In this document: piece by piece, positions 42,188 through 47,555 of the stretch
How positions within the stretch are numbered: position 1 is the stretch's first letter
How the letters are laid out: each line of letters starts with the position of its first letter
DNA from: Gillisia sp. Hel_I_86
Lineage (GTDB): Bacteria; Bacteroidota; Bacteroidia; Flavobacteriales; Flavobacteriaceae
Assembly: GCF_007827275.1 (NCBI RefSeq)
Contig: NZ_VISE01000001.1
Coordinates: 3,720,001 to 3,784,000 of the forward strand
Direction: 5' to 3'
DNA length: 64,000 nt
Made by a program: the position numbers and the translations under genes
The notes under the pieces: generated by a model
Seen by the model: only the letters and a program-made list of their open reading frames with translations
Told to the model about the DNA's origin: nothing
The model's database searches: none

Positions 42188-42889
42188 TTAATCTTCCTCT
42201 TCTACTTCCTCGTCATTATGCGTCGTAGCTTCAAAGCTTTCAACATATTTTAAATCCTGAAAGAAATATTTTGAAGAGATCACAGTAACCAAAGCAGAGT
42301 TATCCGATTGAACTTCTGTCTTCATTTGCCAAATAATATTTTCGGCCTCTACAAATGATTCAGAGCTTAATTGTTCTGTAAACAATCTATTGATAAGTGT
42401 GTTTTCCGGCATACCATGAGCCAACAATCTTATTAAAGCCGCTTCTGAAATTTTATCATCTACAAGAAGATCCTGTAATTTATCTGAAGTAATCTTCACT
42501 TCAAATTCCACTGCTTCAGGAAGGGGGAATTTCCCGTTGAAGGCCTCGTATAGAATTTGTCCGGTATTAAAAAAGTCTTCATGATAACCAATTTCAGCAT
42601 ATTCTTCCCACATTTTTTCTTCCTGTATTTCATTCGAAAGATTATCTATTTGACCGGAATTCAAGCGATCATGGAACACATATCCCAAAACGAGTTTTGC
42701 CGCCTCTCCAGGTTCGTTATCGGCTATGGCCATATAGCACATGTCCTTTAGTTCTGCATCAGGGATTTCAGCAGTATCCCCATATTCCAACACCTCCAGT
42801 AATTCCTTATATTTCTGCTTGTCCCAATAATTGGGCAATTTCAAAATTGTTTCAAAATTTTGTATTTCTACTTTATATAGCGTATCCAT
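42188..42889 (-). CDS. Hypothetical acidic protein
   Basis: A 233-residue, strongly acidic protein that I do not recognise. It has no signal peptide or membrane segment and ends in an acidic tail (HNDEEVEEED). The middle part is helical (PGEAAKLVLGYVFHDRL, MWEEYAEIGYHEDFFNTGQI). It ends 15 bases before the Crp-type regulator, so the two could be co-transcribed. The codon pattern is like its neighbours and the frame is clean, which supports a real gene. Confidence 0.7.
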   Translation of the reverse strand: MDTLYKVEIQNFETILKLPNYWDKQKYKELLEVLEYGDTAEIPDAELKDMCYMAIADNEPGEAAKLVLGYVFHDRLNSGQIDNLSNEIQEEKMWEEYAEIGYHEDFFNTGQILYEAFNGKFPLPEAVEFEVKITSDKLQDLLVDDKISEAALIRLLAHGMPENTLINRLFTEQLSSESFVEAENIIWQMKTEVQSDNSALVTVISSKYFFQDLKYVESFEATTHNDEEVEEED

Positions 42890-42986: not shown

Positions 42987-44255
42987 TTACCTGGCAGTTT
43001 CTTCCAAAGCAGGGGCTTTCCATTTCGTAGTGCCAACCTTGATGCTGTTTGCAGCTTTAATTGCCTTAGAAGACCTGCGTTTATCGTAGATCATTGCAAA
43101 GGTCATAATAAGGCTGGTTCCTATTATCACAAATAATAAGATCCCAGGTTCAAAAGTGGCTATTTCGGCCTCTCCCGGGATGGCATAAAATAAGAGCACG
43201 GTAATTAATCCACGTGGTGCTATAAATAGCTGCGGAAGGATATCTGCTCCTATAAAAATACGAAGTAGCACAAATCGAATTCCGTAGATAGAAGCAATGA
43301 TCATTAAGCTTATGAGTGCCACATCTAAATTCCAAAGAGATGCAATAGCGATGGTAAGTCCGAAGATCACAAAAAAGAAAGTTCGCACCACAAAGGCAGT
43401 TTCTGCAGTAATGGTATGCAACTCATGGTAAATATGGTGCGCTTTTTCGAAATGAAGATATTTGGAGAGCTTCCCTTTAAAGAACAATTTCATATTGGCT
43501 ATTACCAATCCGAAGATCAAAATAATGATCAATGACGATAAATGCATTTTCTTGCCCAATGCATATAAGAGTAGCAAAACGCCAATTAAAAGAAATAATT
43601 TCACCTGACTTTTAATACGCTGAAATATTAATATGATCCCGTAACTGGCTACCAGGGATATCACTATTGTCAATACCAGGTTTCCACTAAAACCCGCGAT
43701 CCCCCCATCTTCCGCAGGATTTAATTTTCCTGTTAGAAAATAGAACATCATAATTCCCAAAATATCCGAAAACGTACTTTCGTAAATATGGAATTCTCTT
43801 TTGGCACCAGTTAATCCCAACACGCTAGGAATGATAATGGCACTGGATAAGATGGATAAAGGGGTTGCATACAACCAGGCAGATTGCATGGTCATTTCTG
43901 GAATGAAATTATACAGAATTAATGCCGCAACCCATGCCGAGGCCAATAACCCGATAAGTGCAATACCCATTGCCTTTAAAATGGGGACGAGTTTTTCCCG
44001 CTTCAACTCCAGTTCTAGTGCAGCCTCCAGAACGATCATAATCAATCCGACAATTCCCAATACTTCTAAAACAGGGAAAAAGTCAACATTCCCGGCATCC
44101 CAATAATCCAATAAATATTGAAGCCCAACCCCCAACATTATCAGCATTAGCACTGCAGGAATATTGGTTTTCTTGGATAACCCGTTAAAAAGAAAGGACA
44201 GTATTATAATTACCGACACCCCAATTATTAAATTATAAGAGGATAAAATTTCCAT
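42987..44255 (-). CDS. Cation:proton antiporter (CPA family)
   Basis: A 422-residue inner-membrane protein with about 11-12 membrane segments. It has the Na+/H+ exchanger fold: NIPAVLMLIMLGVGLQYLLDY near the start, ATPLSILSSAIIIPSV with the following ESTFSDILGIMMFYFLTG, and APRGLITVLLFYAIP near the end. It lacks a C-terminal TrkA domain. It is the last gene of a three-gene unit; its ATG lies 3 bases after the stop of the MscS-like gene. It would exchange Na+ or K+ for protons. Confidence 0.88.
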   Translation of the reverse strand: MEILSSYNLIIGVSVIIILSFLFNGLSKKTNIPAVLMLIMLGVGLQYLLDYWDAGNVDFFPVLEVLGIVGLIMIVLEAALELELKREKLVPILKAMGIALIGLLASAWVAALILYNFIPEMTMQSAWLYATPLSILSSAIIIPSVLGLTGAKREFHIYESTFSDILGIMMFYFLTGKLNPAEDGGIAGFSGNLVLTIVISLVASYGIILIFQRIKSQVKLFLLIGVLLLLYALGKKMHLSSLIIILIFGLVIANMKLFFKGKLSKYLHFEKAHHIYHELHTITAETAFVVRTFFFVIFGLTIAIASLWNLDVALISLMIIASIYGIRFVLLRIFIGADILPQLFIAPRGLITVLLFYAIPGEAEIATFEPGILLFVIIGTSLIMTFAMIYDKRRSSKAIKAANSIKVGTTKWKAPALEETAR

Positions 44256-44258
44256 ATA

Positions 44259-44972
44259 TTAAATCGCTTTACGGGTTAAACTTGTTTCTATTTCTTTTGA
44301 ATTTAAAAAAGAGATAAGATCTTGGGTAGTTGCCCCGGCCTCCAAGGTATATTTTAAAATATGATCTTCGGTTTGTGCACCCATCTTAAGGCTTGGTTTT
44401 TCTTCAAAATCAAGAATAGGATTGTCAAACAAAATATCCAATATACCATCTTTGGCAAGATTCGTATTAAGATATAGCGTCTGCCTCAACGCACTGCTTT
44501 TATTGGAATTTATGGTAAACCCAGAATCTTCCACATTTTTATAATTCACATATTGCTCCCCATGTTCTGTATTCACAATCATTCCCAGTACCATCAAGCG
44601 TTTTATTTCCCCATCCAAATTATCGGATTTTATAAGTGCACCTTCGTTTACAATTGGATTTGATATAAAGATTATGCCGCTAAGATAATTTTGGATATAA
44701 GGATAACCGAAAATTCCTATTATAAGCATTATAATACTATGGGTAATATAATTAATAGATATAAACCCTAAGACAAAAATAACCACAGCAACAGGGGTAT
44801 AAAAGAAAAGGCTATTTCTAAGCCAGAAAATAAAGCGCTTATTTGCTAAATTTTTCTTGGCAGAATTTTCGATAAGCCGAATTACGATCTTTATAATTCC
44901 ATACAGCGCAAGTAGGGCTATAAATAGGTAAAATAGCCCTTTCCATGAATAAAATGTGATGATAGTTTCCAT
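44259..44972 (-). CDS. MscS-like membrane protein
   Basis: A 237-residue protein with three hydrophobic segments (about 12-32, 50-70, 76-97), followed by a soluble domain resembling the MscS channel core: pore-lining-like helix IGIFGYPYIQNYLSGIIFISNPIVNEGALIKSD, then a beta domain (LDGEIKRLMVLGMIVNTEHGEQYVNYKNVED). The MscS equivalent of 'iPN' is diverged, so channel activity is inferred. Its ATG directly abuts the stop of the ATPase gene, and its stop lies 3 bases before the antiporter start, so the three are translated from one message. Confidence 0.7.
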   Translation of the reverse strand: METIITFYSWKGLFYLFIALLALYGIIKIVIRLIENSAKKNLANKRFIFWLRNSLFFYTPVAVVIFVLGFISINYITHSIIMLIIGIFGYPYIQNYLSGIIFISNPIVNEGALIKSDNLDGEIKRLMVLGMIVNTEHGEQYVNYKNVEDSGFTINSNKSSALRQTLYLNTNLAKDGILDILFDNPILDFEEKPSLKMGAQTEDHILKYTLEAGATTQDLISFLNSKEIETSLTRKAI

Positions 44973-47357
44973 TTAGTTAATAGTTCCCCTATATCTTAGA
45001 ATTTCATAGATATCTGAAGTTATTACTCTGTTTAAGATGAGATTTCCATTCGGATTTCTCAATAAAACCTTTGTGTTCACAAGCCTCTTGATCCCAGAAT
45101 CAAAATGAATATTATAGCCTTTACCCAAGAAATTTTTCAATAATACTTCGTTTACATATTTGTAGAGAAATACATATTTTAAAATAATGAGTTCTTCTGC
45201 ACTAAAGAAATCTTCAAAGCTACAATCTTCCCCCTCAAAAACCACAAGATTATTATCTATCATTTTAGTACTATATGACCAAGCTTGTAAAATTTCGCCA
45301 ATGTTGTTTTTAAAACGACTGGACAGTTCCTGAACCTTATGTTCAATATGTTTTGGATACATCACATGTCTATCCTCATTTACCAGTTTTTTATGGGAAG
45401 CTCCATGCCGTATTAAAACCGCCTTGAATATTTCTTCAGTTCTGGTTTTGTTAAGATCTAAGCGGGTTGTAAATGCATTGGAAAAAGGAATCCTCTGGTC
45501 TAAATGTTTTTGCATCGCTTTGGATATAGATACCATTATGAAGATCCTGTTAGATTCTGAAAGCACAAAATTCACAAGTGCCCTAACATTGTCTAAAAAG
45601 CTAATTTCATCGGACCTCCAATATTCCAAATCGTCTATTAATAAGACCGGCCTGGTATTATAAATATTCTTGTTTACTTCTTGTAGGGCTTCCTTTAAAT
45701 TTTTGGTGGTTTTAAATTTTCTGCCCTCGATAGTAATGGTACTATCGGTTTCCAGAAGTATATTATCCTTGCCAAAATGTTTTTTAGCAAAATCTTCCAT
45801 AAAGGTAGATTTACCACTTAAATTATTACCGGTAAGAAGTGCCGATTTATTAAAGCCTTTTTGCCAATCATTAAAACAAACATCAAGTTTGTTTTCTTCT
45901 TCCACACGGGGCACAAGGAAAAGATCACCAATAAAATTTTTGTTTAAAAACAAGGTGTCGTAATATGCGTTTTCTTCCTTTACCATCCTAAATTTAATAC
46001 AATTAATGGCTTTTTCCATTGCATTGTCCTGTGGAAGGGAGGTGGTTTTTTCGTAAGAAGAGTTTAGGAACTTAAAAGCGGTTTTAATTTTTTGAAACCA
46101 ACCTATTAGTAGGCCACTGCTATCTGCCGTGTATTGATTTAATGAAGATTGAAATGAAACTTCCAGAAATTCCTCTGAATTATAAATATTGGTGGCCAGC
46201 AGCTGATTCTCTAATTTATGTTCAATTTGGGCAATAATTTGTTGCTGTTTCCCAATATTTAAACCGATGGTCTTTTGGATCTCTTTAAGTGTTGCTATTT
46301 GTGCGTGAAGTGGCGAAAAAGAATTATTGTTTGTAATTAATTTTAGACTGCTTTTTAAATTAATGAGACTGTGTTTATAATAGGATGCCAAATTGTTCTG
46401 ATTTTCCCATAAGTCTATCAAATAAGGCAACAACTCATAATCCAACCATTTTTTAACAGCTCTATTGAAATCTATCTTTTTAATAAGCAAAAGCCCTTCA
46501 TTGGTAGCGGTTGGGAAATTTAATGTAGCCAAAGATTTTACTTTATCTTCTACGAGATCTGTAAAGCCTTCGAGCTTTCTACCCGAGGAAGTTTCAATCT
46601 TTTTTATAGCAAGAGTAATTTCAGCAACTAGAAGCGGAACCTCCTCATTCTCCTTCATTTTTTCCAATGAAGTTAAAACTGTTTCAATGGTCCCTCTAGA
46701 ATTTTCAGCTTCCTCTAGACTGTTTTCATAAGAAGTTTTAGTGAATTTTTTAATTGAATTAAAGATTTCAATTACCTTTTGAAAAGTTAGACCAGCAGTA
46801 TCTATAAGTTGAATTTGTTCCAGAATATTTTCAAATTGCTCCTTATATACAGGCCAGGGATTTTGTTGATGTTTTGTTTTTCGGGAAATAGCTTTTCTGC
46901 TTTTTTCGAACCTTGCAATAGTTCTATATTCTTGCTCCACATTTTTTTGAAATGCATTTAAAGCTTGGTGAAGAATAGATTTTGATTCTAAAAAATGTGC
47001 TTTAATGGAATCCTTTTTTACAACGTTTTCTTCTGCTTTATGCGATGCAATTTGTAGTTGAAGGAAAACATCCCGGTGCAGCAGCATAAGATCCTTAAAA
47101 GGTTTGGCCAAGGCATAATGTAACAAATAGCATTCTTGGGAATTCCCTTTCCCTGAAGAAATTTCTTGAAATTCCAGATCTGAAGTGGAAATATAATAGT
47201 TGGCCAATTCTGAAAAATTTAAAAGAATATTTCTTTTTAACTTTTCAGAACCAGTAATAGTATCCAGTACATTTTTATATTCATCAAGTTCTAACTCGAA
47301 CTTTTTTGATGAGTAACTAGAGGTAATCTCGGATGGTTCCAAAACTTTTATTTCCAT
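44973..47357 (-). CDS. Large helical protein with AAA-type ATPase domain
   Basis: A 794-residue cytosolic protein that I cannot assign to a named family. Residues 1-480 are helical, partly coiled-coil, without a signal peptide. A P-loop domain follows: Walker A GNNLSGKST (510-518), Walker B PVLLIDDLEYW (570-580) and a sensor-like IFIMVSISKAM (605-615). The C-terminal part (about 695-790: FFSAEELIILKYVFLYKYVNE, FDSGIKRLVNTKVLLRN) looks like a winged helix. It is the first gene of the operon with the MscS-like protein and antiporter. This suggests an ATP-driven switch controlling ion flux; that role is inference. Confidence 0.75.
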   Translation of the reverse strand: MEIKVLEPSEITSSYSSKKFELELDEYKNVLDTITGSEKLKRNILLNFSELANYYISTSDLEFQEISSGKGNSQECYLLHYALAKPFKDLMLLHRDVFLQLQIASHKAEENVVKKDSIKAHFLESKSILHQALNAFQKNVEQEYRTIARFEKSRKAISRKTKHQQNPWPVYKEQFENILEQIQLIDTAGLTFQKVIEIFNSIKKFTKTSYENSLEEAENSRGTIETVLTSLEKMKENEEVPLLVAEITLAIKKIETSSGRKLEGFTDLVEDKVKSLATLNFPTATNEGLLLIKKIDFNRAVKKWLDYELLPYLIDLWENQNNLASYYKHSLINLKSSLKLITNNNSFSPLHAQIATLKEIQKTIGLNIGKQQQIIAQIEHKLENQLLATNIYNSEEFLEVSFQSSLNQYTADSSGLLIGWFQKIKTAFKFLNSSYEKTTSLPQDNAMEKAINCIKFRMVKEENAYYDTLFLNKNFIGDLFLVPRVEEENKLDVCFNDWQKGFNKSALLTGNNLSGKSTFMEDFAKKHFGKDNILLETDSTITIEGRKFKTTKNLKEALQEVNKNIYNTRPVLLIDDLEYWRSDEISFLDNVRALVNFVLSESNRIFIMVSISKAMQKHLDQRIPFSNAFTTRLDLNKTRTEEIFKAVLIRHGASHKKLVNEDRHVMYPKHIEHKVQELSSRFKNNIGEILQAWSYSTKMIDNNLVVFEGEDCSFEDFFSAEELIILKYVFLYKYVNEVLLKNFLGKGYNIHFDSGIKRLVNTKVLLRNPNGNLILNRVITSDIYEILRYRGTIN

Positions 47358-47555
47358 TTATAGATCAAACAACTTAGATGAACATAATAATATTTAAATA
47401 TCATCTAAAGTTACATACATTTTATCTTAAATGACAAATTTAGCTTGATTCCATCTTGGTGGATGTAAAACTTAAATCAACTATAATTCATTTTCAGCAA
47501 GACCGAATTTAAAATATAATTTATAAACAATTTAAAATGAAGGTTTAAGAAACAA

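Follow-up and report, generated by a model that had tools for sequence, protein, structure and literature searches.

A large AAA+ ATPase nearly always encoded beside an MscS gene suggests an undescribed salt and turgor machine in marine and related Bacteroidota

A three-gene operon occupies positions 42987-47357 of a 64,000-nucleotide stretch (the window) of the genome of Gillisia sp. Hel_I_86, a member of the Flavobacteriaceae. It encodes a large ATPase, an MscS-fold membrane protein and a cation/proton antiporter (CPA). Our comparisons reveal that this ATPase of marine and related bacteria is encoded nearly always beside an MscS gene, which suggests that the two proteins belong to an undescribed machine for the control of salt and turgor. 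Most likely, the ATPase and the MscS protein form a core to which interchangeable cation transporters are added, and this core serves nucleotide-controlled K+ and turgor homeostasis. Specifically, we consider it probable that the ATPase is a resident cytoplasmic AAA+ regulator that couples its nucleotide state and a signal to the MscS-fold protein and to a cation transporter.

An earlier note, made from the sequence of the window alone, had described three genes on one strand with 0 and 3 bases between them. Indeed, the open reading frames (ORFs) lie on the minus strand with exactly these gaps. The AAA+ ATPase of 794 residues (44973-47357) comes first, followed without a gap by gene 2 for a 237-residue membrane protein, whose MscS fold was recognized by a fold search and a structure model (44259-44972). 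Three bases further on is gene 3 (42987-44255), for a 422-residue CPA-type antiporter that matches PF00999. The ATPase is single-copy in the window genome, which is one contig of 4.25 Mb.

The arrangement was followed through samples of 199 genomes from the family, 16 from the genus and 395 from the phylum, and through a scan of genome contigs queried with four ATPases from the family sample. A full-length ATPase occurs in 4 of the 199 family genomes, each time followed by an MscS-like gene and an antiporter gene; a match in G131 was left out as likely due to chance (74 residues, E-value 5.5e-4). The contig scan yielded 40 loci with an ATPase of the trio type, and the order ATPase, MscS-like protein, antiporter on one strand is kept in all 39 that are uncut. 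The fortieth (L078) is cut by a contig end and was left out, and three of the 39 (L056, L073 and L077) come from genomes that are also in the family sample. Such constancy excludes a chance arrangement. Across the trios, the gaps range from -4 to 15 bases between the first two genes and from -1 to 9 bases between the last two. The hosts belong to Flavobacteriaceae, Marinifilaceae and Cyclobacteriaceae, and the nearest sequences to the window trio in the scan come from Gillisia, where 7 of the 16 genomes carry the ATPase. The Gillisia trios share their chromosomal place with the window, as seen on both sides at five loci and on the upstream side only at L040. With 4 of 199 family genomes and 7 of 16 genus genomes positive, assignment of the ATPase to a housekeeping family is not supported. 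Aquimarina latercula carries two different trios (L049 and L055), and a separate Kv-type channel gene comes after each of them.

Outside the trio branch, the pairing of ATPase and MscS gene is retained on a broader scale. A profile built from the 40 trio ATPases matched 45 of the 395 phylum genomes, of which G000, G285, G382, G273 and G362 are of the trio type. A second profile, built from 20 distant ATPases, matched 72 genomes, namely G285 and 71 that lie outside the trio branch. An MscS gene adjoins the distant ATPase on the same strand in 69 of these 71; in the remaining two (G441 and G532, loci L220 and L221) the contig ends at the ATPase, and they are counted as cut, not as misses. Adjacency was judged at one or more places per genome, with a second G275 fragment left out, and one G422 fragment (L224) ends with its contig. 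The ATPase gene mostly precedes the MscS gene, with the order reversed, for example, in L199, L205, L208-L213 and L215. All three distant MscS partners that were run in Pfam (L104, L107 and L210) match PF00924, and the others were recognized by a profile of 17 of them or by the trio profile. Because the five genomes counted hold 3-7 PF00924 matches each, adjacency by chance is expected for well under 1% of genes. Most distant ATPases are about 1000 residues long with no predicted transmembrane segments. The ATPase and MscS ORFs overlap in L146, L200, L203 and L204, which we ascribe to start codons called too early.

The antiporter gene is a less constant companion, given that most phylum genomes with the ATPase (71 of 76) have the ATPase without it. 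Since the antiporter is often absent and the channel is retained, the unit is better described as ATPase plus MscS with a variable transporter than as a fixed trio. The earlier note's view of a three-gene unit thus holds for the trio branch, where all three genes are conserved, and gives way elsewhere to a two-gene core. That note had also reasoned that the genes would not form a system if homologues of the ATPase mostly occurred without the channel and the antiporter, which is what we find for the antiporter and not for the channel.

Some relatives are minimal: ATPases called at 298-433 residues (L132, L138 and L144-L149) consist of the AAA and winged-helix parts only and are likewise paired with MscS. 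A candidate relative in G434 (L142) was rejected, as no MscS gene lies beside it and the second profile did not recover it; the 1588-residue protein encoded there (L142:2580-7346, minus strand) is an odd mix of AAA_16, BNR repeats and a Por secretion tail.

What, then, is the ATPase likely to control? The main reason to propose K+ and turgor homeostasis is that one ATPase and one type of channel are repeatedly accompanied by unrelated cation transporters. Nine of the 71 distant genomes encode an ATPase-transporter fusion, the transporter being of the CPA type in six and a cation-chloride cotransporter in three. The CPA-type domain is N-terminal to the ATPase in L201, L202, L206, L207, L214 and L223. 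PF00999 is over its cut-off in L201, L202, L207 and L214; L206 and L223 miss it and match only the L202 N-terminus (2e-60 and 7e-62). At all six of these loci, genes for MscS, TrkH and TrkA come after the ATPase (by Pfam for L202 and L206). The cotransporter-like domain is found in L123, L127 and L136, with AA_permease matches from 1.2e-49 to 5.3e-48 and SLC12 over its cut-off in L127 only. These three fusions also match a cotransporter profile from L056, L060 and L062. The L198 ATPase has an uncharacterized N-terminus with eight predicted transmembrane segments and a TrkH gene upstream. A fused transporter was not seen in the other 61 of the 71 genomes, 60 of which have ATPases that read as unfused or cut.

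Separate cation-transport genes also adjoin six of the 39 trios. Three of these have, after the antiporter gene and at gaps of 1, 6 and 5 bases, a gene for a Kv-type channel with a zinc-ribbon-like tail (Pfam for L073); the other three have a cation-chloride cotransporter gene ahead of the ATPase, at gaps of 2, 15 and 52 bases (Pfam for L056). Furthermore, two genomes that lack the ATPase encode fusions of the antiporter with a Kv-type channel of this kind, zinc-ribbon-like tail included (L036:1501-3843 and L037:340-2697; Pfam for L036). The fusions and the TrkH/TrkA, Kv-type and cotransporter neighbors lend further weight to the proposal of the earlier note that the ATPase gates ion flux to serve osmotic control; physical gating of the channel is itself inferred.

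One further protein accompanies the CPA-type fusions. A membrane-like protein of 414-422 residues is encoded before the fusion gene in L202 (L202:10688-11956) and at five similar loci. It has no Pfam match in the two cases run, and could be a second transporter half.

The ATPase itself is built much as the earlier note described it. In the structure model (mean predicted local distance difference test score, pLDDT, 80.7; predicted template modeling score, pTM, 0.48), a helical N-terminal part spanning residues 17-460 (45978-47309) is followed by an AAA core and by helices and strands at residues 720-789 (44991-45200). The long helical stretch thus lies before the P-loop, as had been noted. Walker A (GNNLSGKST, residues 510-518, 45804-45830) and Walker B (LLIDDLEYW, residues 572-580, 45618-45644) were also correctly identified. 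The best structural match of the core is the D2 region of NSF (chain 501-732; Z 14.9, root-mean-square deviation, rmsd, 3.8 over 212 residues). Archaeal ORC2 (ApORC2) aligns to residues 463-794 (Z 14.3, rmsd 5.5 over 299 residues), and RFC matches the core at Z 13.6. Matches within 1 Z of each other were treated as tied, and the structural alignments hardly reach the helical part. On the strength of the model, the core has an AAA+ fold that places it in the AAA+ superfamily, and the ORC2 alignment over 463-794 indicates that the C-terminal part fits the winged helix previously suspected there.

Sequence searches recover less. The window ATPase has no Pfam match over the cut-off, including none to nSTAND, no NCBIfam match and no PADLOC match, and Pfam gives no match to the TrkA_N (RCK) domain in it at E-value 0.1. 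Among its relatives, nSTAND matches stay below threshold (best 6.3e-5, in L198), and of the distant ATPases run in Pfam L207 reaches the cut-off of the generic AAA_22 family. A search of the Protein Data Bank (PDB) with the window ATPase alone gave no match, and the ATPase profile found an AAA ATPase as its best match (8bns, E-value 4.3e-4). The profile and structure searches that the earlier note had called for therefore arrive at an AAA+ core with an ORC-like winged helix.

Conservation among the 40 trio ATPases falls partly outside the classical motifs. The most conserved of eight stretches compared is residues 456-486 (mean pairwise identity 0.68), which takes in the motif YDTLFLNKNFIGDLFLVPR before the P-loop (residues 466-484, 45906-45962), recognized in the alignment of trio ATPases. 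Invariant in all 40 are G510, G515, G545-R546-K547, D575 and W580, as well as R650, N685, G687, Q691 and W693. Residue 516, the Walker A lysine, is kept as K in 32 of the ATPases and replaced by R in 7 and by T in 1, and Walker B residue 578 is E in 30, H in 9 and Q in 1. With these two residues variable, ATP hydrolysis is probably not uniform across the trios.

An MscS-like core had been claimed for the second protein, and the fold search bears this out even though Pfam makes no MscS call. The model (pLDDT 82.7, pTM 0.59) shows three long helices (residues 10-103), a beta domain and an alpha/beta domain. Of the 50 Foldseek matches listed, 46 are named MscS-family channels and four are named 'membrane protein' (best E-value 4.3e-9), and the VIA structure comparison gives Z 11.3 to 2oau. 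Whole-chain template modeling (TM) scores against MscS are low (0.12-0.39) with high rmsd, which we attribute to a different placement of the domains. Partial alignments are better, with rmsd 4.1 over 136 residues for 2vv5 and 2.1 over 68 residues for 7a46. PF00924 (MS_channel) does not match the window protein at E-value 0.1, nor in a search of the whole genome, and its sole Pfam match is a sub-threshold one to MFS_1. The profile search of the PDB gave weak MscS matches only (best 0.041). By eye, the third transmembrane helix does not have the Gly/Ala-rich pattern seen in a distant partner, and the window protein may therefore be a weak pore or an adaptor. Extra MscS-type genes lie beside some trios, either downstream (L059, L062 and L075; Pfam for L075) or divergently upstream (L051, L061 and L073; Pfam for L073).

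Gene 3 was correctly called a CPA antiporter, as it matches PF00999 at 8.4e-16 with 58.2 bits against a cut-off of 26.2. It matches NF003716, the NCBIfam model for a potassium/proton antiporter, at 4.3e-7, far under the cut-off of that model, and a PDB search with the antiporter profile found nothing at 0.001. The catalytic pair is N-D in CPA1 and D-D in CPA2 antiporters. Gene 3 fits neither pattern and reads S-D, and this pair (S163-D164, within ESTFSD) is invariant in the antiporters of all 40 trios.

The three genes of the trio evolve at different rates. Across the 40 trios, identity to the window proteins is 73-97% for the antiporter, 24-83% for the ATPase and 18-84% for the MscS-like protein, and the median pairwise distances are 0.21, 0.66 and 0.67, respectively. 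The distance matrices of the ATPase and the MscS-like protein correlate at 0.978, and those of the two with the antiporter at 0.87 and 0.85; none of 1000 permutations attained any of these three values. Shared ancestry alone yields high correlations of this kind, and therefore we read only the contrast between genes. On this sequence comparison, the ATPase and the MscS-like protein change in step, and the antiporter is under far stronger constraint.

These data can be accommodated by the following mechanism. The ATPase would reside at the inner face of the membrane and bind nucleotide via its AAA+ core, while the long helical part would sense a signal such as crowding, energy state, ionic strength, or tension relayed by the channel. 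Both the MscS-fold protein and its partner transporter would then be turned on or off by the ATPase. In the branch that includes the window, the antiporter would swap K+ (or Na+) for H+, such that cation content and turgor would be set jointly. The partner role would fall to TrkH/TrkA, cation-chloride cotransporters or Kv-type channels in other branches. A bolder version of this proposal, which we regard as possible but hold only tentatively, has the ATPase docked on an MscS-fold channel as the core of a new class of ATP-controlled osmoregulatory complexes in Bacteroidota. The cation transporter attached to this core would differ between lineages, encoded by a gene of its own or fused to the ATPase, and nucleotide state would jointly adjust transport and channel-mediated release. 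In such complexes, the window MscS-fold protein may be a former pore that now serves as an adaptor between ATPase and antiporter.

Several observations weigh against a nucleotide-driven regulator of channel and transporter. For the majority of the 71 distant ATPases, no transporter was identified either as a fusion partner or downstream, and the matrix correlations partly reflect shared ancestry. The window MscS-fold protein misses the Pfam MscS model, has low whole-chain TM-scores and, by eye, is without the Gly/Ala-rich pore helix of its distant counterpart. Moreover, the middle protein is just 185-187 residues long in the trio genomes G273 and G362, where MscS profiles reach 0.13 at best. 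Hydrolysis may not be needed either, because 8 of the 40 trio ATPases have another residue in place of the Walker A lysine and a simple pattern search detects no Walker A in 3 of 10 long relatives (L201, L202 and L214). Finally, the winged helix could bind DNA. The shortened middle proteins are encoded at L165:8172-8729 and L166:7172-7735, and the one from L165 has no Pfam match.

AAA+ proteins commonly remodel their partners, and the ATPase might accordingly assemble, disassemble or extract a membrane complex instead of gating it. The best alignments of its core, with NSF, ORC2 and RFC, agree with such a role, but a catalytic remodeler would be a poorer fit than a resident regulator to the transporter fusions in nine genomes, and replacement of the Walker A lysine in 8 of the 40 trio ATPases also counts against it. 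We therefore judge a remodeling factor to be unlikely. The same ORC2-like layout with its C-terminal winged helix, together with the weak nSTAND matches among relatives, would suit a signal-dependent transcription regulator of the neighboring transport genes, in the style of STAND or ORC proteins. However, in those nine genomes the ATPase forms the soluble end of a membrane-transporter fusion, and an MscS gene is its neighbor in every uncut distant genome, which makes a regulator of this kind distinctly improbable.

The earlier note had also entertained an abortive response to infection. On such a reading, a defence system would open a channel and kill the cell when a phage infects it. The patchy distribution of the ATPase, and its fast evolution beside a conserved membrane protein, could be expected of a defence system. 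Yet none of the three proteins matches a PADLOC family, the window ATPase finds no match in 50,697 phage and 72,556 plasmid records, and the ATPase profile finds none in viral contigs (distant relatives were not included in these searches). The partners are cation-transport proteins, and the locus holds the same chromosomal place in the trio-bearing Gillisia genomes. A defence role is thus not supported, and we assign it a very small probability. An equally slim chance remains that three membrane-related genes merely share one promoter and have no joint function, as might be argued from the related antiporters, which are present in 41 family genomes, 37 of them lacking the ATPase. Against this stand the 39 intact trio loci in three families, the adjacency of ATPase and MscS genes throughout the phylum in both gene orders, and the fusions.

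The lone antiporters offer a clue to how the trio may have arisen. These relatives of gene 3 were collected at E-values of 1e-20 or lower, and the weakest are about one third identical to it. Among the 20 of the 37 loci that were examined, none has an ATPase or MscS-like gene nearby; nusA and infB are neighbors in 18 and rimP in 17. The most divergent trio of the scan (L077, with 24% ATPase identity) lies in this same neighborhood, flanked by a TMEM260-like gene and, on the opposite side, by rimP, nusA and infB, all of these families being confirmed by Pfam. On a tree of the antiporters, the trio members need two label changes compared with about 21 in shuffles, although long branches make the tree unsure. 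This pattern fits an origin of the trio at the lone-antiporter site followed by a later move, a direction that these sequences do not prove.

Upstream of the window ATPase, a putative promoter-like block at 47397-47444 (minus strand) is kept, as judged by eye, in the window and six Gillisia loci and more weakly in L042, and the spacer around it is mostly not conserved among the same loci. A scan for promoters and terminators gave counts close to those of shuffled sequences (33 versus 25.7, standard deviation 5.0, and 4 versus 4.0, respectively). A gene for a 233-residue protein with no Pfam match (42188-42889, minus strand) comes after the trio, and relatives of this gene lie near the trio in 8 of the 39 loci, including those of Aquimarina and Cellulophaga.

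MscS channels are usually described as self-sufficient safety valves gated by tension. If the regulatory role proposed here is true, a single switch driven by nucleotide would govern both the release of turgor and the transport of cations in many bacteria. A large protein family, for which searches with the window ATPase turned up no dedicated Pfam or NCBIfam model, would also gain a testable role. The pairing of ATPase and MscS can be tested by standard downshock and K+ assays. In the open-access literature, a scope that excludes preprints and most subscription journals, we found no description of the ATPase-MscS pair, the trio or the fusions. The earlier note likewise knew of no described system with this trio. 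Our own survey of the pair covers the phylum Bacteroidota, with other phyla outside it.

Each of the three proteins has well-known relatives. The 237-residue protein shares its fold with the MscS family (MscS, YnaI and MscK), and the distant partners tested carry PF00924. Unlike members of that family, it is adjoined by a dedicated AAA+ ATPase, and the window protein misses both the Pfam model and, as judged by eye, the Gly/Ala-rich pore helix. Gene 3 matches PF00999, as do CPA antiporters of the NhaP/CvrA and Kef types, from which it differs in its S-D pair and in its linkage to the ATPase and MscS genes.

Trk/Ktr K+ uptake systems use nucleotide-binding TrkA/KtrA subunits, and the present system resembles them in outline by combining a cation transporter with a cytoplasmic nucleotide-binding regulator; TrkH and TrkA are even present at six distant loci. 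However, this ATPase is an AAA+ protein and not an RCK (Rossmann) protein, and it is paired with MscS, so that the system is not a member of the Trk/Ktr group. ORC/Cdc6 proteins and STAND NTPases similarly combine an AAA+ core with a winged helix, whereas the ATPase differs from them in its long helical N-terminus, in the transporter fusions of its relatives and in the lack of replication genes noticed nearby. Thus, each protein falls in a known superfamily, and we rate the system as a whole as new.

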